From Phreatobacter aquaticus (GTDB taxonomy: Bacteria > Pseudomonadota > Alphaproteobacteria > Rhizobiales > Phreatobacteraceae), in the NCBI RefSeq assembly GCF_005160265.1, contig NZ_CP039865.1, positions 1,140,828 to 1,204,827 of the forward strand: a DNA stretch of 64,000 bases. Reading direction: 5' to 3'. Numbering within the stretch: position 1 is the stretch's first letter; every line of letters begins with the position of its first letter. The notes beneath the pieces were generated by a model, which saw only the letters and a list, made by a program, of their open reading frames with translations, had not been told where the DNA came from and did no database searches. This document shows, piece by piece, positions 13,618 through 23,665 of the stretch. The position numbers and the translations under genes were made by a program.

Positions 13618-14370
13618 ATGAACCAGATCGATCTCAAGGGCCGCGTCGCGGTCATCACCGGCGGCGCGCGCGGCATCGGCTATGGCGCCGCCGAGCGGAT
13701 GTTGTCGTCCGGCGCCTCCGTCGCGCTTTGGGATGTCGATGCCGCCCGCCTGAAGGAGGCGGAAGCAGCCCTCGGCAAACTCGGCAAGGCGACAAGCCAT
13801 GTGGTGGAACTGACCGACGCAGCATCCGTGCAGGCCGCGACGGACGCCGTCGTGGCCGCCCATGGCGGCATCGACATTCTCGTCAACAATGCCGGCATCA
13901 CCGGCGGCAATGGCAAGACCTGGGAGCTGGAGCCGGATATCTGGCGTCAAGTGATCGACGTCAATCTGGTCGGCCCGTTCCTCACCTGCCGCGCCATCGT
14001 GCCGGTCATGCTGAAGAAGGGCTACGGCCGCATCGTCAACATCGCCTCCATCGCCGGCAAGGACGGCAATCCCAACGCGTCGCACTATTCCGCCTCGAAG
14101 GCCGGCCTGATCGGGCTGACCAAATCGCTCGGCAAGGAACTGGCGACCTCGGGCATCCTGGTCAACTGCATCACACCGGCCGCCGCCAAGACCGAGATCT
14201 TCGATCAGATGAAGCAGGAGCATATCGACTTCATGCTGTCGAAGATCCCGATGAACCGCTTCCTGCAAGTGAACGAGGTCGCCGCCATGATCGCCTGGCT
14301 GGCCTCGGAGGACTGCGCCTTTTCCACCGGCGCGGTCTTTGACATTTCCGGCGGACGGGCGACCTATTGA
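13618..14370 (+). CDS. SDR family NAD(P)-dependent oxidoreductase
   Basis: A 250-residue classical short-chain dehydrogenase. The nucleotide-binding TGGARGIG is at residues 14-21, NNAG at 90-93, and the catalytic triad is Ser144, Tyr157 and Lys161 (HYSASKAG). The C-terminus DISGGRATY resembles sugar-acid and FabG-like members. Asp39/Asp41 after the second strand (LWDVD) suggests a preference for NAD over NADP. The substrate cannot be assigned. It lies 55 bases after tam and just upstream of the nas regulators. Confidence 0.9.
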   Translation: MNQIDLKGRVAVITGGARGIGYGAAERMLSSGASVALWDVDAARLKEAEAALGKLGKATSHVVELTDAASVQAATDAVVAAHGGIDILVNNAGITGGNGKTWELEPDIWRQVIDVNLVGPFLTCRAIVPVMLKKGYGRIVNIASIAGKDGNPNASHYSASKAGLIGLTKSLGKELATSGILVNCITPAAAKTEIFDQMKQEHIDFMLSKIPMNRFLQVNEVAAMIAWLASEDCAFSTGAVFDISGGRATY

Positions 14371-14408
14371 TCCCAGGCCCTGACGGCTTGTGCATCGCCC
14401 TTGTGCAG

Positions 14409-14425
14409 TGCACCATCACGGTGGA
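14409..14425. promoter_or_regulatory. NtrC-type binding site upstream of nasT
   Basis: TGCACC-ATCAC-GGTGGA matches the NtrC consensus TGCACC-N5-GGTGCA at 11 of the 12 defined positions. It lies 22 bases before the probable nasT start. It overlaps GTGCA-G-TGCAC (14403-14413), a second palindrome. NtrC control of nitrate assimilation genes under nitrogen limitation is well established; use of this site is inferred. Confidence 0.6.
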
Positions 14426-14446
14426 CCTGAACGCGGGAGCCCTGCC

Positions 14447-15034
14447 CTGATCGATGCCGCCCTGACGATCTGCATCGTCGACGAGAGCCGGTCGCGCGCC
14501 GCCATCATCGAGGACGGACTGCGCGAGGCGGGCTACCGGCGCATCGTGCACATCGACGAGATGACCAACCTGCTGGCGAGGCTCTATGCCACCGACCCTG
14601 ATGTGGTGGTCATCGACCTCGAAAACCCCTCCCGTGACGTGCTGGAACAGCTCTTCCAGGTCTCCAAACTGGTCAAGCGCCCGGTCGCCATGTTCGTCGA
14701 CCAGTCGGATACCCGCATGATCAATGCCGCCATCGAGGCCGGCGTCTCGGCCTATGTCGTCGACGGCCTGAAGAAGGAGCGGGTGCGCGGCATTCTCGAC
14801 ATGTGCATTGCGCGTTTCCACGCCTATTCGAAGCTTCAGGGCGAGCTCGACCATGCGAAATCCCAGCTCGAGGAGCGCAAGATCGTCGAACGGGCCAAGG
14901 GGCTCTTGATGAAGCACAAGGGCATTTCGGAAGACGAGGCCTATGCGCTGATGCGCCGGCGCGCCATGAACGAGAAAAAGAAGATCGGCGACATCGCGAA
15001 TGCCGTGGTGACCGGCCTGGAGATGCTCGGATGA
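14447..15034 (+). CDS. nasT: NasT, ANTAR-domain nitrate-responsive antiterminator
   Basis: A response-regulator-like protein of about 195 residues: a receiver-type domain (ICIVDESRSRAAIIEDGLRE...) and a C-terminal ANTAR RNA-binding domain (KIVERAKGLLMKHKGISEDEAY-LMRR-AMN). NasT binds tandem hexaloop hairpins in the leader of nitrate operons and prevents termination when NasS releases it. Start is uncertain. GTG codons at 14390 and 14408 are in frame but lack ribosome sites, and the extension would encode an unrelated segment overlapping an NtrC box. A CTG at 14447 has GGGAG 7-8 bases upstream, and family similarity begins there. The stop overlaps the nasS start by 4 bases, as expected for a translationally coupled sensor pair. 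Confidence 0.9.
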   Translation: MIDAALTICIVDESRSRAAIIEDGLREAGYRRIVHIDEMTNLLARLYATDPDVVVIDLENPSRDVLEQLFQVSKLVKRPVAMFVDQSDTRMINAAIEAGVSAYVVDGLKKERVRGILDMCIARFHAYSKLQGELDHAKSQLEERKIVERAKGLLMKHKGISEDEAYALMRRRAMNEKKKIGDIANAVVTGLEMLG

Positions 15035-16191
15035 AGCGGCTGACCATCGGTTTCATTCCGCTCACTGACGCAGCGCCGCTGATCGCGGCCCATGAATGCG
15101 GCTTTGCTGCCGATCAGGGCCTGGAACTCGATCTGGTGCGGGAAGTCTCCTGGGCGAATATCCGCGACAAGCTGTCGGTCGGCCTGTTCGACGCCGCCCA
15201 TATGCTGGCGCCGCTTGCGCTCGCCTCCGCGCTTGGCATCGGCCATGTGAAAGTGCCGCTGATCGCCCCGGTCACGCTGGCGCTGAACGGCAATTGCATC
15301 ACCGTCTCGACGGCCTTTGCGCGCGAAATGGGCGAGATCCCCGATGATCCCCTGGCTGCCCTGCCCTTGATCCGGGCCGCGATCGAGCGGCGGGCCAGTG
15401 CAGGCTTGAGCCCGCCGGTCTTCGCCATGACCTTCCCGTTCTCCACCCACAATTATCTCCTGCGCGCCTATCTCGCCGCGGGCGGCATCGATCCCGACCG
15501 CGACGTACAGCTGGTGGTGATCCCGCCGCCGCTCATGGTCAATTCGCTGGAGAAAGGCCTGATTGACGGGTTCTGCGTTGGCTCGCCCTGGAATTCGCTG
15601 GCCGTCGACCGCGGCATTGGCCGCATTCTCTGCCCGACCTCTGCGCTGTTCTCCGGGATACCCGAGAAGGTGCTGGCCATCGGCGCCACGCCTGACGCCG
15701 GCACCTCCCTCGCCCTCGTAGCGGCGGTCGCCCGTGCGGCCGCCTGGTGCGCTGATCCGGCCAATGCGCGGACGCTCGCCGACATGTTGGCCGCGAAACA
15801 TTATCTCGACGTCGCTGCACCCGTTGTGCTGCGCACGATCGAAGGCCGCCTGGTGCTGGAGCCGGGCGGACCGCAGATCGATATTCCCGACTTCATTCGC
15901 TACGACGTGCCGGATGCCGTCAGGCCGAATGCCGGCCGCTTCGCCTGGCTTTATGCGCAGATGGTGCGCTGGGGCCAGACCCGCTTCGATCCCGCTGCCA
16001 TGGGTCAGATCGAAGCCTTGATCCGCGCCGACCTGTTCGATCGGGCGCTCGAATCAATGCCCGTGACAGCCGCCGCGATTGTTGCCGGCGATCCCGTCGG
16101 CGCGCGCATCGACCGGCCCTTCAATCCCTTTGATATCGGCGGCTATCTCGCCGGATTCGACGCCCGCGGACTGCCGGCAGGCACGCGATGA
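15031..16191 (+). CDS. nasS: NasS, cytoplasmic nitrate sensor (NrtA/CmpA-like)
   Basis: A 386-residue homologue of the nitrate-binding protein NrtA that begins directly with the domain (MKRLTIGFIPLTDAAPLIAA) and has no signal peptide. This marks NasS, which stays in the cytoplasm, holds NasT inactive and releases it on binding nitrate or nitrite. It shares with NrtA the segments MTFPF/G-TH, DGFCVG-PWN and IPEKVLAIGA. It overlaps nasT by ATGA. The gene order (nasT first) differs from many relatives where nasS comes first. Confidence 0.9.
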   Translation: MKRLTIGFIPLTDAAPLIAAHECGFAADQGLELDLVREVSWANIRDKLSVGLFDAAHMLAPLALASALGIGHVKVPLIAPVTLALNGNCITVSTAFAREMGEIPDDPLAALPLIRAAIERRASAGLSPPVFAMTFPFSTHNYLLRAYLAAGGIDPDRDVQLVVIPPPLMVNSLEKGLIDGFCVGSPWNSLAVDRGIGRILCPTSALFSGIPEKVLAIGATPDAGTSLALVAAVARAAAWCADPANARTLADMLAAKHYLDVAAPVVLRTIEGRLVLEPGGPQIDIPDFIRYDVPDAVRPNAGRFAWLYAQMVRWGQTRFDPAAMGQIEALIRADLFDRALESMPVTAAAIVAGDPVGARIDRPFNPFDIGGYLAGFDARGLPAGTR

Positions 16192-16198
16192 AAATTCT

Positions 16199-16210
16199 TG
16201 CACTGCACAA
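16199..16210. repeat. 12-bp motif shared in inverted orientation with the nasT upstream region
   Basis: TGCACTGCACAA here is the exact reverse complement of 14401-14412 (TTGTGCAGTGCA) upstream of nasT. It lies about 120 bases before the sigma54-like promoter, a distance suited to an activator site, and contains TGCAC half-sites as in NtrC boxes. Function is inferred only. Confidence 0.4.
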
Positions 16211-16328
16211 CGATACGGCAGCTCTGCCCGCGGTCTGCTGAAAGATCGCGCCGGGCCTGGCGAAACGTAATCCCGGGCCACTTTTCGCAACACACTGATT
16301 TCTTGGAACGATTCTGATCGCGGGCAAC

Positions 16329-16345
16329 TTGGCACGCGGCTTGTA
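16329..16345 (+). promoter_or_regulatory. Sigma54 (-24/-12) promoter of the nrt-nas operon
   Basis: TTGGCACGCGGCTTGTA matches the sigma54 consensus YTGGCACGrNNNTTGCW at all but two positions, with GG and the -12 G spaced exactly 12 apart. Transcription would begin near 16356, about 30 bases before the ANTAR hairpins. Sigma54/NtrC control fits nitrogen assimilation. Confidence 0.75.
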
Positions 16346-16386
16346 TCTCCCTTTGTCAAGCGAGGGTCAGGTTGGACCTCCGTCCC

Positions 16387-16419
16387 GGCCCAACAGAGGG
16401 CCATCAGCAACGCCGCTGA
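16387..16419 (+). ncRNA. Tandem hexaloop hairpins, NasT (ANTAR) RNA target
   Basis: Hairpin P1 is GGCCC-AACAGA-GGGCC (16387-16402). A single A follows, then hairpin P2, TCAGC-AACGCC-GCTGA (16404-16419). Two adjacent stems each closing a six-base loop is the known ANTAR-target architecture. The P2 loop has A at position 1 and G at position 4, as that consensus requires; the P1 loop has A at 1 but A at 4. The 3' arm of P2 is also the 5' arm of the terminator at 16413-16497, so the two structures exclude each other. The cognate NasT and NasS genes are directly upstream. Confidence 0.8.
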
Positions 16420-16497
16420 CAGACGTTCGACAGATCGGATTGCGCGCTTCGACGAAGCGCCAGCGAACCGGAGTCGGGCCGAAGTCAGCGGTTTTTT
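16413..16497 (+). terminator. Leader terminator competing with the ANTAR hairpins
   Basis: CCGCTGAC (16413-16420) pairs perfectly with GTCAGCGG (16484-16491), which is followed by six T. The enclosed region contains a second perfect stem, GCGCTTC-GAC-GAAGCGC. The 5' arm overlaps the P2 hairpin, so NasT bound to P1-P2 would block termination and allow nrtA transcription. Confidence 0.72.
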
Positions 16498-16646
16498 GCG
16501 TTTCGGGCGACCGGAACGGCAGGCAGGCGGGAGAAGGCGGGCTTTCGACGACCGGCAACAAGCGGCGCGAAGCAGGCCACCAGGGGAATGAACCGATTGC
16601 GCGCCGCAGGGCGCGGGCCCGAGGGCCGTCAGACAGGAAAGCGACG

Positions 16647-17969
16647 ATGAGCAAGACTGTTTCCGCCAGCACGAGTGTTGCCCGCGCGATCGATCGCCGA
16701 TCGCTGCTGAAGTCCACCGCCGCGACCGCTGCCCTCTTCGCCGCTGCCAAGGCAGCGCTGCCCGGCGGCGCCTTTGCCCAGGGAACTGGTCCCGAAGTGA
16801 AGGGCACCAAGCTCGGCTATATCGCACTGACCGATGCGGCGGCGCTGATCATTGCCAAGGAAAAGGGCTTCTACGCCAAGCACGGCGTGCCCGACATGGA
16901 CATTTCCAAACAGGCCTCATGGGGCGCGACGCGCGACAACATGGCGCTCGGCACCAAGGCCAACGGCATCGATGGCGGCCATATCCTGCGTCCCAAGACC
17001 CATCTCTACACCACCGGCAAGGTGATGCAGAACGGCCAGCCGCTGCCGATGTACACGCTCCTCAACCTCAACGAGGACGGCCAGGCGATCTCCGTCTCCA
17101 ACGAGTACAAGGACCTGAATGTCGGCAAGGATGCCTCGCCGCTCAAGGCCGCCTTCGAGCGCAAGAAGGCTCAGGGCAAGGAACTCACCGCCGCAATGAC
17201 CTTTCCGGGCGGCACCCATGACCTGTGGATCCGCTACTGGCTGGCCGCCGGCGGCATCGACCCGGACACCGACATCAAGGTGATCACCGTTCCGCCGCCG
17301 CAGATGGTTGCCAACATGAAGGTCGGCAACATGGACTGCTTCTGCGTCGGCGAGCCGTGGAACGAGCAGCTGGTCAACCAGAACATCGGCTATTCGGCGT
17401 TGACCACTGGTGAACTTTGGTCGCGCCATCCGGAGAAGATTCTCGGCATGCGCGCCGACTGGGTCGACGCCAATCCGAAGGCCACCCAAGCCATCCTGAT
17501 GGCCGTCATGGAAGCCCAGCAATGGTGCGACGCCATGGCGAACAAGCAGGAACTGGCCGAGATCGTCGGGCGCCGTCAGTGGTTCAATGTGCCGGTCAAC
17601 GACATCAACGGCCGCCTGCGCGGCGACATCAATTACGGCAACGGTCGCAAGGTGAATGCGCCGGAACTGCGCATGAAGTTCTGGGGCGAGGGCGGGACGT
17701 CCTCCTACCCCTGGAAGAGCCTCGACACCTGGTTCGTCGCGGAGAACATCCGCTGGGGCAAGTTCGAGCCGACCACCGACATCAAGGCGCTCGTCGACAA
17801 GACCAACCGCTCTGACCTGTGGCTGCAGGCGGCCAAGACGCTGGGCGTCGCCGGCGTGCCGACCTCGGATTCCCGCGGCGTTGAGACCTTCTTCGACGGC
17901 GTGAAGTTCGATCCGGCCGACCCCTCCGCCTATCTGCGCTCGCTGAAGATCAAGCGCGCCCAGGTCTGA
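16647..17969 (+). CDS. nrtA: Nitrate ABC transporter substrate-binding protein NrtA
   Basis: A 440-residue periplasmic nitrate-binding protein of the NrtA/CmpA family. A Tat signal (RRSLL at 17-21, hydrophobic run, likely cleavage after GAFA near residue 44) precedes the binding domain, with LGYIALTDAAALIIAKEKGF, FPGGTHDLWIRYWLAAGG and DCFCVGEPWNEQ. The in-frame region upstream of 16647 is the regulatory leader and not coding; AGGAA precedes the chosen ATG. It is the first structural gene of the nitrate operon, behind a sigma54-like promoter and a NasT-controlled terminator. Confidence 0.94.
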   Translation: MSKTVSASTSVARAIDRRSLLKSTAATAALFAAAKAALPGGAFAQGTGPEVKGTKLGYIALTDAAALIIAKEKGFYAKHGVPDMDISKQASWGATRDNMALGTKANGIDGGHILRPKTHLYTTGKVMQNGQPLPMYTLLNLNEDGQAISVSNEYKDLNVGKDASPLKAAFERKKAQGKELTAAMTFPGGTHDLWIRYWLAAGGIDPDTDIKVITVPPPQMVANMKVGNMDCFCVGEPWNEQLVNQNIGYSALTTGELWSRHPEKILGMRADWVDANPKATQAILMAVMEAQQWCDAMANKQELAEIVGRRQWFNVPVNDINGRLRGDINYGNGRKVNAPELRMKFWGEGGTSSYPWKSLDTWFVAENIRWGKFEPTTDIKALVDKTNRSDLWLQAAKTLGVAGVPTSDSRGVETFFDGVKFDPADPSAYLRSLKIKRAQV

Positions 17970-18025: not shown

Positions 18026-18928
18026 ATGACGCGCCCCGCGCTCAAAGCAGTCGAGGATACCGGTTCGGCCATCGCGGCACCCGTCGCCGAGGTGATCCGG
18101 CTGGAGGTGCCCACCGGCCCGACACGCCGGGAGCGGCTGCGCGGCCAAGCGATCGGCGTGGCCTCCGCAGTTATCCCGCCGCTGATCATGCTGGCGCTGA
18201 TCCTGCTGGTCTGGGAACTGCTCTGCTCGGGCGCCAACGCGACGCTGCCCCCGCCTTCGCGCGTCTGGGCCGAGGCGAACGACCTGATCCTCGATCCGTT
18301 CTTCGTCAATGGCAGCCAGGATATCGGCCTTGGCTGGCGCGTGCTGACTTCGCTGCAGCGGGTTGCGATCGGCTTCGGGCTCTCGGCCGTGGTCGGCATC
18401 ATGGTCGGCGCCCTAGTCGGGCAGTCGACCTGGGCCATGCGCGGCCTCGACCCGATTTTCCAGGTGCTGCGCACCGTGCCGCCGCTCGCCTGGCTGCCAA
18501 TCTCGCTTGCCGCCTTCCGCGACGCCAATCCGAGCGCAATCTTCGTCATCTTCATCACGGCGATCTGGCCGATCCTGATCAACACCTCGGTCGGCATCCG
18601 CAACATCCCGCAGGACTATCGCAATGTCGCCGCCGTGCTGCGGCTGAACCATTTCGAGTTCTTCTGGAAGATCATGCTGCCCTCGGCGGCGCCCTATATC
18701 TTCACCGGCCTCAGGATCGGCGTCGGCCTCGCCTGGCTCGCCATTGTTGCCGCCGAAATGCTCACCGGCGGCGTCGGCATCGGCTTCTTCATCTGGGACG
18801 CGTGGAACTCCTCCAAGCTGCCCGACATCATCATCGCCCTCGTCTATATCGGCCTGATCGGGTTCGTCCTCGACCGGTTGATCGCAGCGCTCGGCAATGT
18901 CGTCACCCGCGGCACGGCCGCGAACTGA
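18026..18928 (+). CDS. nrtB: Nitrate ABC transporter permease NrtB
   Basis: A 300-residue inner-membrane permease of the NrtB/SsuC type with about six transmembrane segments from residue 50 on (VIPPLIMLALILLVWELL is the first). It includes the EAA-loop region DYRNVAAVLRLNHFEFFWKIMLP that contacts the ATPase. The N-terminal 45 residues are hydrophilic and cytoplasmic. It lies 56 bases after nrtA, separated by a stable hairpin, and 11 bases before the ATPase gene. It moves nitrate (possibly nitrite) delivered by NrtA. Confidence 0.93.
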   Translation: MTRPALKAVEDTGSAIAAPVAEVIRLEVPTGPTRRERLRGQAIGVASAVIPPLIMLALILLVWELLCSGANATLPPPSRVWAEANDLILDPFFVNGSQDIGLGWRVLTSLQRVAIGFGLSAVVGIMVGALVGQSTWAMRGLDPIFQVLRTVPPLAWLPISLAAFRDANPSAIFVIFITAIWPILINTSVGIRNIPQDYRNVAAVLRLNHFEFFWKIMLPSAAPYIFTGLRIGVGLAWLAIVAAEMLTGGVGIGFFIWDAWNSSKLPDIIIALVYIGLIGFVLDRLIAALGNVVTRGTAAN

Positions 18929-18939
18929 GGAGACGCCCC

Positions 18940-19743
18940 ATGGCACGCCAGGTCCCCTATCTCCTCATTGAAGGCGTGGAGAAGACCTTCACCCGCGGCA
19001 GCACCTCCAACAATGTGCTGCACAACGTCTCGATCGCCATCGAGCAGGGCGAGTATGTCTCGATCATCGGCCATTCGGGCTGCGGGAAGTCGACATTGCT
19101 CAACCTCATCGCCGGCCTCACGCCGGTGACCTCGGGCGGCATCCTGCTCGAGAACAAGGAGGTCAATTCGCCGGGCCCCGACCGCGCCGTCGTCTTCCAG
19201 AACCACTCGCTACTACCCTGGCTGACGGTCTACGACAATGTTCGCATGGCCGTGGACAAGGTCTTTTCCGGCCGCAAGTCCAAGGCCGAGCGCCATGACT
19301 GGACCATGCATGTGCTGGATCTCGTCCATATGGGCCATGCCAAGGACCGCCGTCCCGGCGAGATCTCCGGCGGCATGAAGCAGCGCGTCGGCATTGCCCG
19401 CGCGCTCTCCATGGAGCCCAAGATCATGCTGCTCGACGAGCCCTTCGGCGCGCTCGACGCGCTGACCCGCGCGCATCTGCAGGATTCGATCATGCAGATC
19501 CACGCCGCGCTGAAGAACACCATGATCATGATCACCCATGACGTCGACGAGGCAGTTCTGCTCTCTGACCGCATCATCATGATGACCAACGGCCCCTCCG
19601 CCACCATCGGCGAGGTACTCGACGTCACCCTGCCACGTCCGCGCAAGCGGCTCGAACTGGTCTCCAACCCGACCTACATCAAGGCGCGCGAGGCGGTACT
19701 CAAGTTCCTCTACGAGCGCCACAAGTTTGTCGAGGCGGCTTGA
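18940..19743 (+). CDS. nrtD: Nitrate ABC transporter ATP-binding protein (NrtD type)
   Basis: A 267-residue ABC ATPase. Walker A GHSGCGKST is at residues 44-52, then the Q loop VFQNHSLLPWLTVYDN, the signature SGGMKQRVGIARAL, Walker B IMLLDEPFGALD and the switch ITHDVDEA. It lacks the C-terminal NrtA-like domain of cyanobacterial NrtC, so it corresponds to NrtD/NasD. AGGAG is 8 bases before the ATG. It energises nitrate uptake with NrtA and NrtB. Confidence 0.93.
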   Translation: MARQVPYLLIEGVEKTFTRGSTSNNVLHNVSIAIEQGEYVSIIGHSGCGKSTLLNLIAGLTPVTSGGILLENKEVNSPGPDRAVVFQNHSLLPWLTVYDNVRMAVDKVFSGRKSKAERHDWTMHVLDLVHMGHAKDRRPGEISGGMKQRVGIARALSMEPKIMLLDEPFGALDALTRAHLQDSIMQIHAALKNTMIMITHDVDEAVLLSDRIIMMTNGPSATIGEVLDVTLPRPRKRLELVSNPTYIKAREAVLKFLYERHKFVEAA

Positions 19744-19758
19744 GAGCAGGGCGATCCC

Positions 19759-20967
19759 ATGTCGGAACGTCTCGTGATCATCGGCAACGGCATGGCCGCC
19801 GCCAAGCTCGTCGAGGAGATCGGCAAGCTTGGCCTCGGTCGCTACTCGATCCTGGTGATCGGTGCCGAGCCGATGCTCGCCTATAACCGCGTGCTTCTGT
19901 CCTCGCTGCTGGCGGGCGAGGTTGCCCGCGACGACATGGTGCTGAAGAACCGCGACTGGTGGCGCGCGCAAGGCGTCACGCTTCTCTATGGCGAAGCCGC
20001 AACCGCCATCGATACCCATGCAAGGACCGTGGTGCTCGACAGCGGCAAGATCATCCCGTTCGATCGCCTGGTGATCGCCACCGGCTCGACGCCGATCCGC
20101 CTGCCCAAGCCCGGCATGGACCTGCCCGGCGTCCTCACCTTTCGCGACCATGACGACGTCTCCGCCATGCTGGATGCGACGAGCCCGGTGACCCGCGCGG
20201 TGGTTATCGGCGGCGGCCTGCTCGGCATCGAGGCGGCACACGGACTGTCGAAAACCGGGGCGCGCGTCACGCTCATCCACCTGATGGACCGGCTGATGGA
20301 ACGCCAGCTCGATCCCGAAGCCGCCGTCCTGCTCCGCCGCGAACTGGAAGCCCGCGGCATCGAGATCATGCTGGGCGCCGATACGGCCGCAGTCGAGGGC
20401 GATGCTTGTGTCGAAGCCGTGCGACTGACCGATGGCCGCGTCCTACCCGCCGACATGGTCATCTCGGCAGTCGGCATCCGCCCCAATGCCGAACTGGCCC
20501 GTGCGGCAGGCCTCGCCGTCAACCGCGGCATTGTCGTCGACGACGGACTTGCGACCTCCGACCCCGCCATATCAGCGCTCGGCGAATGCGCCGAGCATCG
20601 AGGCACCTGCTACGGGTTGGTGGAGCCGGCCTATGATCAGGCCAAGGTGCTCGCGGCTCGTCTGTGCGGTCGGCCCGCCGCCTATGCCGGCACGGTGCTC
20701 GCCACCAACCTGAAGGTCTCGGGCATGCCGGTCTTCTCGGCCGGCGACTTCATTGGCGCCGAGGGAACAGAGGCCATCATCTATCGCGATCCAGGCCTCG
20801 CCACCTATCGCAAGCTGGTGCTGAAGGACGATGTGCCCGTCGGCACGGTACTGGTCGGCGAGACAGGCGACGGCCTCTGGTATCTCGACCTGATCCGTCG
20901 GGGTGAAAAGCTCGGTCCCCTGCGCGAGGCCATCGTCTTCGGACGCAGCTTCGCCGAAGCGGCCTGA
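19759..20967 (+). CDS. FAD/NAD(P)-dependent oxidoreductase, NasB-like electron donor for nitrate reductase
   Basis: A 402-residue pyridine-nucleotide disulfide oxidoreductase-fold protein. An FAD-binding GNGMAAAKL lies near residue 9, a second dinucleotide fold (VVIGGGLLGIEAAHGL) near 150, and the C-terminal domain resembles the N-terminal half of NirB. It has no siroheme or 4Fe-4S nitrite reductase half, so it cannot itself reduce nitrite. It sits 15 bases after the transporter ATPase and 7 bases before nasA, so it very probably passes electrons from NADH to NasA through the latter's [2Fe-2S] domain. Truncated NirB-like annotation is the alternative name. Confidence 0.85.
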   Translation: MSERLVIIGNGMAAAKLVEEIGKLGLGRYSILVIGAEPMLAYNRVLLSSLLAGEVARDDMVLKNRDWWRAQGVTLLYGEAATAIDTHARTVVLDSGKIIPFDRLVIATGSTPIRLPKPGMDLPGVLTFRDHDDVSAMLDATSPVTRAVVIGGGLLGIEAAHGLSKTGARVTLIHLMDRLMERQLDPEAAVLLRRELEARGIEIMLGADTAAVEGDACVEAVRLTDGRVLPADMVISAVGIRPNAELARAAGLAVNRGIVVDDGLATSDPAISALGECAEHRGTCYGLVEPAYDQAKVLAARLCGRPAAYAGTVLATNLKVSGMPVFSAGDFIGAEGTEAIIYRDPGLATYRKLVLKDDVPVGTVLVGETGDGLWYLDLIRRGEKLGPLREAIVFGRSFAEAA

Positions 20968-20974
20968 GGCGCCC

Positions 20975-23665
20975 ATGAACGCCTTAGGGACCTTGCCGAA
21001 GCCGGTCGCCACCGCCTGCCCCTATTGCGGGGTCGGCTGCGGCGTCCTGATGACGGCGGATGCCAGCGGCGCGATCACGGCCTCGGGCGATCCCGACCAT
21101 CCCGCCAATCGCGGCCGGCTCTGCGTCAAGGGCTCGGCGCTAGGCGAGACCATCGGCCTGGAAGGCCGCCTGCTCCACCCAATGATCCGATCGCGCTCCG
21201 GGACGCTGGAGCGGGTCTCATGGGACAGTGCGCTCTCGGCCACCGCCGAGGGCTTGTCCCGCATCGCGCGGACCCACGGCCCCGACGCCGCCGCCTTTTA
21301 TCTGTCGGGCCAGCTTCTGACCGAGGATTATTACGCGGCCAACAAGCTGATGAAGGGCTTTGTCGGCACGGCCAATGTCGACACCAATTCCAGGCTCTGC
21401 ATGGCCTCCTCGGTTGCCGGCCACCGCCGCGGCTTCGGCTCGGACACGGTTCCCGGCACTTACGAGGATCTCGACGAGGCCGATCTGCTCGTCCTGGTCG
21501 GCTCGAATGCCGCCTGGTGCCACCCGATCCTCTGGCAGCGCATGCTCGCCACCAAGCAGGCGCGCGGCGCCAGGATCGTCGTCATTGACCCGCGCAAGAC
21601 CGCGACCTCGGCCGATGCCGATCTCATGTTGGCGATCCGTCCGGGCATGGACGCCGCTCTCTTCTCAGGACTGCTGGTGCATCTCGCCGAAACCGGCGCG
21701 CTGGACCGCGCTTATATCGACGCCCATACGACCGGCCTGGACCAGGCCCTTGCGAGAGCGCGCGAGATCGCGCCGACGCTCGCCGCAACTGCGATCACCT
21801 GCGGCTTGCCCGAGGCCGATGTCGCAACTCTCTTTGCCTGGTTTACCGCCAACCCCCGCGTGGTCACGCTCTACAGCCAGGGCGTCAATCAATCGGCGCA
21901 GGGCACCGACAAGGTCTCCGCCATCCTCAATTGCCACCTCGCCACCGGCCGCATCGGGCGTGTGGGGATGGGACCCTTTTCGCTCACCGGCCAGCCCAAT
22001 GCCATGGGGGGGCGCGAGGTGGGTGGCCTCGCCAACATGCTGGCCGCCCATATGGGCTTTTCCGGCACCGAGATCGACCGGGTCGGCCGGTTCTGGGGCG
22101 CGCCACGCATGGCCGAGCGCGAGGGCCTGAAGGCCATCCAGATGTTCGATGCGGTGGAGGCCGGCAGCATCAAGGCGCTCTGGGTGATGGCCACCAACCC
22201 GGCCGTCAGCCTGCCACGCGCCGATGCTGTCAGGCGGGCCATGGCGGGCCTCGACCATTTCGTCGTCTCGGAGAACATGCTCTCCAACGACACCGTCAAT
22301 TCCGGCGCCCATATCCTGCTGCCGGCCGCCGCCTGGGGCGAGAAGGACGGCACCGTCACCAATTCGGAGCGGCGCATCTCGCGCCAGCGGCCCTTCCTGC
22401 CCTTGCCGGGCGAGACTCGACCAGATTGGTGGATCATTGCCGAAGTCGCCAAGCGCATGGGCTATGGCGAGGCCTTCGACTGGCCGGATGTCGCCTCGAT
22501 CTTCCGTGAACATGCAGCGCTCTCCAGCTTCGAGAACCGGGGCAGCCGCGATTTCGACATTGGCGGCTTCAGCCACCTGAGCAATTCGGACTATGAGGTA
22601 CTTGCGCCTGTCCAGTGGCCGGTGCGCACACCGACCGATCTTGGCGACAAGAGGTTCTTCGCCGAAGGTGGCTTCTTCACGCCCGACGCACGCGCCCGCT
22701 TCATCGCCATCGATCAGCCGGACCTGAAGGCGGAGCCCGATCCGGCCTTCCCCTATCTGCTCAATACCGGCCGTATGCGCGATCACTGGCACACGATGAC
22801 GCGCACCGGCAAGGCGCCGACGCTCGGACGCCACCGCGTGGAGCCCTTGCTCGAAATCCATCCCGACGATGCCGCCGTCGAGGGCCTCGCCGCGGGCGAT
22901 CTTGCCGAGGTGACCTCCACCCATGGCAAGGCGACGCTCAGGGTCGCTGTCGAACCAGGCCAGTCGCGCGGGTCGCTGTTCGCGCCGATCCACTGGAATG
23001 GCGAGACCGCCAGCCACGGCCGCATCGGCGCGCTGGTCCAGCCCTTCACGGACCCCTGGTCCGGGCAGCCGGAGATGAAGGCGACCCCCGTCTCCCTGAC
23101 GCGCGTTGCGCCGGGCCTGGAGGGCTTCATCCTGTCGCACGGCGCAGTCGACCTGCCGGCTGGCACGGTCTGGGCCCGCGCGGCGATCGATGGCGGGCTC
23201 GGTACGGTGTTCGCCGCACCGCAAGGGCTCGATGCGCCCGCACTGGCTCGGACACTCAAGCCGGAAGGCGGCTCGATCAGCGAGTTCGAAGATGCCGCCC
23301 GCGGGGTCTATCGCGCGGCGATCTTCGATGGCGAGCGCCTTGTTGCAGTGCTGTTCGCCGCACTTGGCGGCAGGCCATCCTGGTCGTGGATCGAAACCCA
23401 GTTCGGGGCGCCGGAACTCTCGCCACTCGCCCGCAAGGCGCTGCTCTCCGGGCGCTCGCCCGACGGCCTGGCCGATGCAGGTCCCACCATCTGTGCCTGC
23501 TTCGCCATTGGCCTCACCGCCATCAAGGCGGCGATCGCCCACGGTGCCTGCGACGTCGATGCCGTCGGCGTGGCGCTCAAGGCCGGCACCAATTGCGGAT
23601 CCTGCCGGCCGGAGATCAAGCGCGTGATTGAGACGCTGAACGGCCAAGCAAGAACCCTAGCCTAA
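20975..23665 (+). CDS. nasA: Assimilatory nitrate reductase catalytic subunit NasA
   Basis: An 896-residue cytoplasmic molybdopterin oxidoreductase that reduces nitrate to nitrite. The N-terminal [4Fe-4S] cysteines are C15, C18, C22 and C50 (CPYCGVGC... LCVKG). The Mo-bisMGD domain contains YLSGQLLTEDYYAANKLMKG, SRLCMASSVAG and QGVNQSAQGTDKV. The molydopterin dinucleotide-binding domain begins near residue 585 (YLLNTGRMRDHWHTMTRTGK). A C-terminal BFD-type [2Fe-2S] domain (CACF ... CGSC) receives electrons from the flavoprotein. No signal peptide. GAGG is 5 bases before the ATG; an in-frame start upstream lies inside the previous gene. Last gene of the operon. Confidence 0.95.
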   Translation: MNALGTLPKPVATACPYCGVGCGVLMTADASGAITASGDPDHPANRGRLCVKGSALGETIGLEGRLLHPMIRSRSGTLERVSWDSALSATAEGLSRIARTHGPDAAAFYLSGQLLTEDYYAANKLMKGFVGTANVDTNSRLCMASSVAGHRRGFGSDTVPGTYEDLDEADLLVLVGSNAAWCHPILWQRMLATKQARGARIVVIDPRKTATSADADLMLAIRPGMDAALFSGLLVHLAETGALDRAYIDAHTTGLDQALARAREIAPTLAATAITCGLPEADVATLFAWFTANPRVVTLYSQGVNQSAQGTDKVSAILNCHLATGRIGRVGMGPFSLTGQPNAMGGREVGGLANMLAAHMGFSGTEIDRVGRFWGAPRMAEREGLKAIQMFDAVEAGSIKALWVMATNPAVSLPRADAVRRAMAGLDHFVVSENMLSNDTVNSGAHILLPAAAWGEKDGTVTNSERRISRQRPFLPLPGETRPDWWIIAEVAKRMGYGEAFDWPDVASIFREHAALSSFENRGSRDFDIGGFSHLSNSDYEVLAPVQWPVRTPTDLGDKRFFAEGGFFTPDARARFIAIDQPDLKAEPDPAFPYLLNTGRMRDHWHTMTRTGKAPTLGRHRVEPLLEIHPDDAAVEGLAAGDLAEVTSTHGKATLRVAVEPGQSRGSLFAPIHWNGETASHGRIGALVQPFTDPWSGQPEMKATPVSLTRVAPGLEGFILSHGAVDLPAGTVWARAAIDGGLGTVFAAPQGLDAPALARTLKPEGGSISEFEDAARGVYRAAIFDGERLVAVLFAALGGRPSWSWIETQFGAPELSPLARKALLSGRSPDGLADAGPTICACFAIGLTAIKAAIAHGACDVDAVGVALKAGTNCGSCRPEIKRVIETLNGQARTLA

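Follow-up and report, generated by a model that had tools for sequence, protein, structure and literature searches.

A predicted NasT-type attenuator with a variant P1 hexaloop ahead of nrtA in Phreatobacter aquaticus

In Paracoccus, nitrate dissociates the NasS-NasT complex and NasT binds the nasA leader, in which hairpin HI is required, as described in PMC3795266 and PMC5424462. In the account of the EutV-RNA structure in PMC8934654, G4 of the hexaloop is the only base-specific contact; it stacks against Tyr164, and Arg142, Lys149 and Glu160 form bonds with it. The same paper reports that EutX RNA carries an additional hexaloop. Changes of G4 in either EutV loop lower induction according to PMC3369931, and for NasR PMC7496416 gives a value of about 1 uM when both hairpins are present and of about 12 uM when P2 stands alone.

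Here we describe a leader in a 64-kb stretch of Phreatobacter aquaticus DNA (the window, that is, the whole stretch analysed), which is, as predicted from its sequence, a conserved NasT-type attenuator. Since EutV, NasR and NasT already exemplify this mechanism, the finding is largely ordinary and expected.

The nasTS-nrtABC-nasBA locus and its leader

The genome is a single contig of 4.97 Mb, in which a profile search found one ANTAR match, NasT itself. Genes for RpoN and for NtrC (above its cut-off) are also encoded. The following genes surround the leader:

14390..15034, + strand: nasT, receiver plus ANTAR domains (Pfam ANTAR PF03861, 71 bits; Response_reg, 37 bits; both above cut-off); start codon uncertain, the portion used in the domain search starting at 14450
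15031..16191, + strand: nasS, NrtA-like nitrate-binding protein (Pfam NMT1_2, 236 bits), overlapping the nasT stop codon; no signal peptide by eye
16647..17969, + strand: nrtA, substrate-binding protein of a nitrate ABC transporter (Pfam NMT1_2, 346 bits)
18026..18928, + strand: nrtB, permease of the nitrate ABC transporter (TIGR01183, 314 bits, above its cut-off)
18940..19743, + strand: nrtC, ATPase of the nitrate ABC transporter (TIGR01184, 337 bits, above its cut-off); start taken from the open reading frame, the profile search having begun at 18943
19759..20967, + strand: NirB-like FAD protein (first half of the TIGR02374 profile, 401 bits, below the full-length cut-off)
20972..23665, + strand: nasA, molybdenum oxidoreductase (formate dehydrogenase alpha 462, NasC 412 and NasA 396 bits, all below their cut-offs); start codon uncertain

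The Pfam domains and the gene order agree with the sequence-only reading, which had placed nasT and nasS directly upstream of the leader, and the ATG of nrtA at 16647 bears out its distance of some 150 bases past the terminator. The first regulated gene after the leader is nrtA, and its counterparts after the leader in ten relatives are 86-92% identical. The product of 20972..23665 is a probable assimilatory nitrate reductase, named nasA from context, and the NirB-like FAD protein its probable electron-transfer subunit. The C-terminal stretch of the nasA product (residues 772-889) matches the middle of NirB (TIGR02374).

Within the intergenic region between nasS and nrtA, we identified the following elements:

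16204..16220, + strand: conserved element TGCACAACGATACGGCA, 17 bp, with ends conserved in 11 aligned genus sequences
16329..16345, + strand: sigma54-like -24/-12 box TTGGCACGCGGCTTGTA, kept in the genus
16360..16383, + strand: P0 hairpin with six-base loop AGGTTG (minimum-energy fold)
16387..16402, + strand: P1 hairpin GGCCC-AACAGA-GGGCC, with A at loop position 4 (sequence and fold)
16404..16419, + strand: P2 hairpin TCAGC-AACGCC-GCTGA, with a canonical A1/G4 loop (sequence and fold)
16413..16497, + strand: predicted intrinsic terminator, mutually exclusive with P2 (sequence, folds and detector)

The twin six-base-loop hairpins P1 and P2 had been reported earlier with coordinates that proved exact to the base; P0 was absent from that account. 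The single base A16403 links P1 to P2. The terminator likewise lies where claimed; its arms are CCGCTGAC at 16413-16420 and GTCAGCGG at 16484-16491, then come six T at 16492-16497, and the 3' arm of P2 is used as the 5' arm of the terminator. A detector for twin hexaloops with an overlapping terminator, run with one G4 required, found a single place on both strands of the 64-kb window, which was this leader, and nothing on five mononucleotide shuffles (one strand). The fold of the leader (16356-16500) reaches -70 kcal/mol, with z = -4.8 against shuffles. A simple terminator scan with loops of 3-8 bases lent no support, giving one weak site in 14300-16700 vs 1.4 expected. At one pair of the arm 16484-16491 the window has A-U where all ten genus relatives have G-U, which makes the window terminator arm the stricter match.

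Promoters of the sigma54 type carry GG at -24 and GC at -12, the -12 part usually being TTGCA. The sequence-only reading had called the box near-consensus. Its position (16329-16345) is right and the GG at -24 is present; the -12 part deviates, being TTGTA rather than TTGCA. This element has GT in the window and GA or GT across the genus, departing from TTGCA in all 11 genus leaders; GC is present in some families outside the genus. Among the 35 leaders collected below, 32 have a TGGCA[CT]-type box upstream of P1, vs 17 of 8228 control windows, by a pattern written after the sequences had been seen. Further upstream, TTGCACTGCACAACGATACGGCA (16198-16220, including the 17-bp element) shows good conservation across the genus and might serve as an activator site. 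The ends of TGCACAACGATACGGCA look NtrC-site-like, a putative function; set by eye against the P. denitrificans motif given in PMC5424462, they match, and the central TT differs.

As nasS and nrtA share an orientation and are separated by about 455 bases, nrtA might be transcribed mainly from the nasTS promoter or from one inside the leader, so that the switch would act on little mRNA. We consider this quite improbable: the sigma54-like box keeps a near-fixed distance from P1 (42-54 nt ahead of the P1 loop in 30 of 35 leaders), a simple scan of 14300-16700 revealed no sigma-70-type site, and readthrough from nasTS would run into the same terminator.

Leaders in related genomes

The arrangement nasT-nasS-leader-nrtA is present in ten of the 11 genus-mates searched, and sigma54-like box, P1, P2, terminator and T run occur together in all 11 Phreatobacter leaders (window included). 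The eleventh genus-mate (G001, 89% complete) has neither an ANTAR match nor an R1 match (R1 and R2 being the covariance models introduced below), and a 27.7-bit R2 match. Loops of P0 differ across the genus. Those of P1 also vary in their letters, while positions 1 and 4 are near-fixed, with A1 in 10/11 (all but L114) and G4 in 10/11 (all but the window), so that the ten relatives set off one natural A4 exception.

Rfam gave no match to the leader at the gathering score and, when E values up to 5 were admitted, a single 8-bit match, which lay on the opposite strand. For this leader without an Rfam match, the covariance models built here supply a description that reaches several families. Model R1, with the window included in its seed, was run on 297 genomes of the order; R2, seeded with the window and 16 other leaders, was run at two ranks, on 387 genomes from the class and on 397 from the order. 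Both returned many weak matches, and small or phylum-wide searches added little. Chosen by model score and then by terminator, from the subset of listed matches that was fetched, 35 leaders were kept, each with both hairpins and a terminator; they fall into 8 families, 11 coming from the genus, 16 from family f34 and 8 from elsewhere. The strict detector confirms only part of these sites; with a looser script, 33 of 35 showed an unbroken arm match of at least 5 pairs at a T run, and L152 and L161 were accepted by fold. Beside nasTS in 75 loci, mostly of Bradyrhizobium (L037-L111), the detector, set there to demand A1 and G4 in both loops, found no leader. One further site, L220, looks by eye like L163 of the same family while the detector is silent; it stays outside the counts.

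Across families, both stems covary. In the alignment of the 35 leaders, which is fitted to the model and therefore favours it, 91.7% of paired cells were complementary vs 88.2 in shuffles (sd 0.7), 12 cells had changed on both sides vs 3.9 (sd 1.5), and the covariation score was 0.121 vs 0.068; for each measure none of 500 shuffles was as high. Sliding the partners by 1-3 columns lowered pairing to 27-48%. Further pair types did not exceed the shuffles (7 vs 7.3; 388 of 500 as high), and the fifth, outer pair of P2 is missing in 21 of 34 distinct rows. Absence of compensatory changes in relatives had been named beforehand as grounds for refutation; changes on both sides were found across families. 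Within the genus the covariation expected earlier for both stems holds once for P1, where L112 has an inserted A-U pair (GGACCC/GGGTCC) with both arms changed, but not for P2, which shows no compensatory change there; L113 lacks the outer P2 pair.

The terminator follows P2 to varying degrees. In L152 (family f22), P2 is CCGGC/GCCGG and the 3' arm of the terminator has changed to match in the fold, with a broken T run. In L160, L162 and L163 the arm follows the altered P2 only via a mismatch or bulge (by eye), and in L162, L163, L192, L195 and L199 the terminator arms match without a break only over GCCGC/GCGGC, with two bases in common with the P2 arm. The linker measures 1-4 bases across the relatives (L161 counted with a 5-bp P1). 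The one-base linker, earlier taken as a departure from the usual pattern, is thus ordinary for the group.

Outside the genus, each genome with a checked leader also encodes an ANTAR protein (21 of 21). Three further genomes were checked: G757 and G001 are without an ANTAR match, and G177 has one and no valid leader.

These data bear on a plainer reading, in which the leader is a constitutive attenuator or a 5' stability hairpin without NasT, and the terminator arms fold into P1 and P2 only incidentally. The arms do partly force P2, and the stretch with the hairpins and without the terminator (16356-16425) folds only modestly better than shuffles (z = -2.4; 5 of 200 equally good). Yet a purine at P1 loop position 1 (35/35) and G4 (34/35) are kept although needless for a terminator, and the leader co-occurs with ANTAR genes; we regard the plainer reading as highly improbable and retain the NasT-controlled attenuator.

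Several other matches were set aside. In the P. aquaticus genome, R1 gave one strong target at 64 bits (the window being in the R1 seed), followed by a next match at 19 bits. Of ten weak R1 matches there (14-19 bits), the seven checked as further targets (L123-L129) lack a terminator-linked pair and were treated as chance for that reason. R2, at E up to 0.01, found only the known site in this genome. The match in G177 (L140/L198) has no terminator and no sound P2, and phylum-wide matches L221-L224 have no terminator-linked pair. In G757 (L200, L209), a hairpin TCAGC-AACGCC-GCTGA stands alone directly after a sigma54-like box and before a gene we take to be hcp-like; as a NasT target it was rejected, with no terminator found, and it is probably a chance occurrence, since that genome is without an ANTAR match.

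Two further observations concern second sites. Three genomes of family f34 (G238, G743 and G219) have a second leader, L201, L202 and L203 respectively, which combines a sigma54 box with P1, P2 and a terminator and lies at a distance of about 3.5 kb from the first. Five genus genomes have a second weak R2 match of 26-30 bits (G011:C16:72064, G005:C10:32432, G010:C7:27409, G006:C3:147258 and G003:C34:473377); in three stretches fetched from these sites (L204-L206), a linked terminator was not found.

The P1 loop, the third hexaloop and class membership

The A in place of G at position 4 of the P1 loop, noted by the sequence-only reading, is a real departure and stands alone among the 35 leaders. 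G4 is otherwise universal in P1, and this count may be favoured by the R2 seed, whose 16 other leaders all have it; the non-seed sites have it in 18 of 18. The remaining four positions, other than 1 and 4, vary. Position 1 is G in 5/35 P1 loops (L114, L152, L159, L160 and L161) and in 7/35 P2 loops (L150, L151, L161, L190, L192, L193 and L195), so that a purine, and not strictly A, describes position 1 better in this group.

The window NasT does not explain A4, because the residues that contact G4 are kept: in the alignment, Tyr, Arg, Lys and Glu occupy the corresponding places of EutV. Lys143, Arg168, Met172 and Asn173 of EutV are also kept, with Arg for Lys147 and Lys for both Arg175 and Arg177 (EutV was mapped by hand, the residue numbers of the paper being two below the chain positions). 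We expect A4 in P1 to weaken the recruitment of NasT and not to abolish it.

Against the dual-hexaloop definition in PMC3369931 (two adjacent stem-loops of at least 3 bp with six-base loops, and A1 and G4 in both), the leader has two adjacent stems of 5 bp each and A at position 1 of both loops (AACAGA and AACGCC), and fails on G4, which P2 has and P1 replaces with A. The C-G pair closing each loop, found in the NasR selection (PMC7496416), is present in both. The genome encodes an ANTAR protein, NasT, whose gene adjoins the leader. The linker of 1 base compares with 5-12 in eut targets, 2-25 in the actinobacterial set as given in PMC8164766 and 1-4 in the relatives. That actinobacterial survey, as described, accepted loops with one point variation, and by its rule the window leader would pass. 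Because G4 in both loops fails, we classify the window copy as a variant by descent and not a standard member, which most likely works like one.

A stronger form of this departure would be that the leader descends from a working NasT target whose strong control has been lost here: as P1 has A4 and P0 lacks G4, NasT would have a poor hold on P2, and operon expression would be set mainly by terminator leakiness and the promoter. In its favour, this is the only leader of 35 without G4 in P1, NasR is roughly tenfold weaker on a single hairpin than on the pair (PMC7496416), EutV G4 changes in either loop cut induction (PMC3369931), and the window terminator has A-U vs G-U in the ten genus relatives. 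However, both stems and their C-G closing pairs are intact, as are the P2 loop, the terminator, the -24 element and the residues with which NasT makes contact, the single loop base is the only defect seen, and the purine changes at position 1 in relatives indicate that the loops tolerate some change. Loss of control thus seems unlikely to us, and we prefer a leader that would still respond to NasT.

The leaders of family f34 contain a third six-base-loop hairpin between promoter and P1, with purine-1 and G4, at 15 of 16 sites (loops e.g. GGCGCT, AACGAT and GACGAG); L197 scores via another hairpin. Examples are L141 (1474-1493), L159, L160 and L161. In the minimum-energy fold, an additional pair reduces 10 of these 15 P0 loops to tetraloops; two of the hairpins do not beat 5% of shuffles. 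ANTAR-like P0 hairpins with unrelated stems occur in single leaders of f81, f84 and f86, and f23 has a weak 4-bp P0; none was found in f22, f42, two of three f86 leaders or any of the 11 genus leaders. An ANTAR-like hexaloop score of at least 7 is reached by 305 of 8234 40-nt control stretches of these GC-rich loci, and this background makes the single cases weak evidence on their own. The P0 of the window was rejected as an ANTAR hexaloop: its loop AGGTTG is without G4, and 0/11 genus leaders have an ANTAR-like P0. Among the papers listed by searches of open-licence literature, none was shown to describe a third hexaloop or an nrtA leader of this kind.

Tentatively, alphaproteobacterial NasT leaders could form a class wider than the dual-hexaloop rule, with a sigma54 promoter, a linker of 1-4 bases, purine-1 and, in several families, P0; we hold this to be possible, on the doubtful side. 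If true, the window leader would be the stripped end of the class, with G4 only in P2 among P0, P1 and P2, and a natural test of whether one proper hexaloop suffices for antitermination. The question raised by the EutV structure, whether an ANTAR dimer needs two proper hexaloops or takes one at a time, becomes testable with natural sequences.

Proposed switch and its described counterparts

The leader very probably attenuates the nrtABC-nasBA operon under the control of the upstream nasTS, with NasT binding and antitermination as its putative means. Under nitrogen shortage, the NtrC/sigma54 promoter would start RNA at about 16356, and P1 and P2 are computed to form co-transcriptionally. When the RNA is lengthened in 5-base steps and folded at each, P2 is present at ends from 16420 to 16485 and gone at 16490, 16495 and 16500; NasT would therefore be left a span of about 65-70 transcribed bases for locking P2. 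Nitrate would make NasS release NasT, as found by others in Paracoccus, and free NasT would grip the hexaloops and hold P2, keeping GCTGA from the terminator and allowing readthrough into nrtA. When nitrate is lacking, NasT would stay on NasS; once 16484-16491 has been made, the computed terminator fold displaces P2 (-70.0 vs -58.6 kcal/mol with P1 and P2 forced, a difference of 11.4 kcal/mol), and transcription would then halt at the T run. The outcome would be an AND gate for nitrogen shortage and the presence of nitrate. Because of the A4 in its P1, this copy probably makes a weaker initial, recruiting contact and leans more on P2.

The locus is most readily compared with the P. denitrificans nasA leader as described in PMC3795266 and PMC5424462. 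In both, nasTS lies directly upstream and the hairpins sit in a short intergenic leader; in P. denitrificans, HI is needed for growth on nitrate and NtrBC is involved, where we infer NtrC/sigma54 here. Unlike that system, in which nasA is the first gene and the tested NtrC site lies before nasT, nrtA comes first here, a sigma54-like box precedes the leader and one loop has A4 (same reports). The Enterococcus faecalis EutV targets share the two hexaloop hairpins and the second hairpin that overlaps an intrinsic terminator (PMC3369931, PMC8934654). They differ in their linker, 5-12 bases, whose shortening to 3 hurt induction (PMC3369931), whereas it is 1 here and 1-4 in the relatives, and in having A1/G4 in both loops where P1 has A4 here (PMC3369931, PMC8934654). 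Klebsiella nasF/NasR resembles the system predicted here in its nitrate-responsive ANTAR antitermination and in the C-G closing pair; as given in PMC7496416, A1 and G4 are preferred in both loops of the NasR target, and one protein senses and binds, whereas two, NasS and NasT, share these tasks here. Finally, NasT antitermination at hairpin leaders, as predicted here, has been described for nosR, nirA and coxS of Bradyrhizobium diazoefficiens (PMC6759348), where NasT has several targets including denitrification, in contrast with the one detected here, which belongs to nitrate assimilation.
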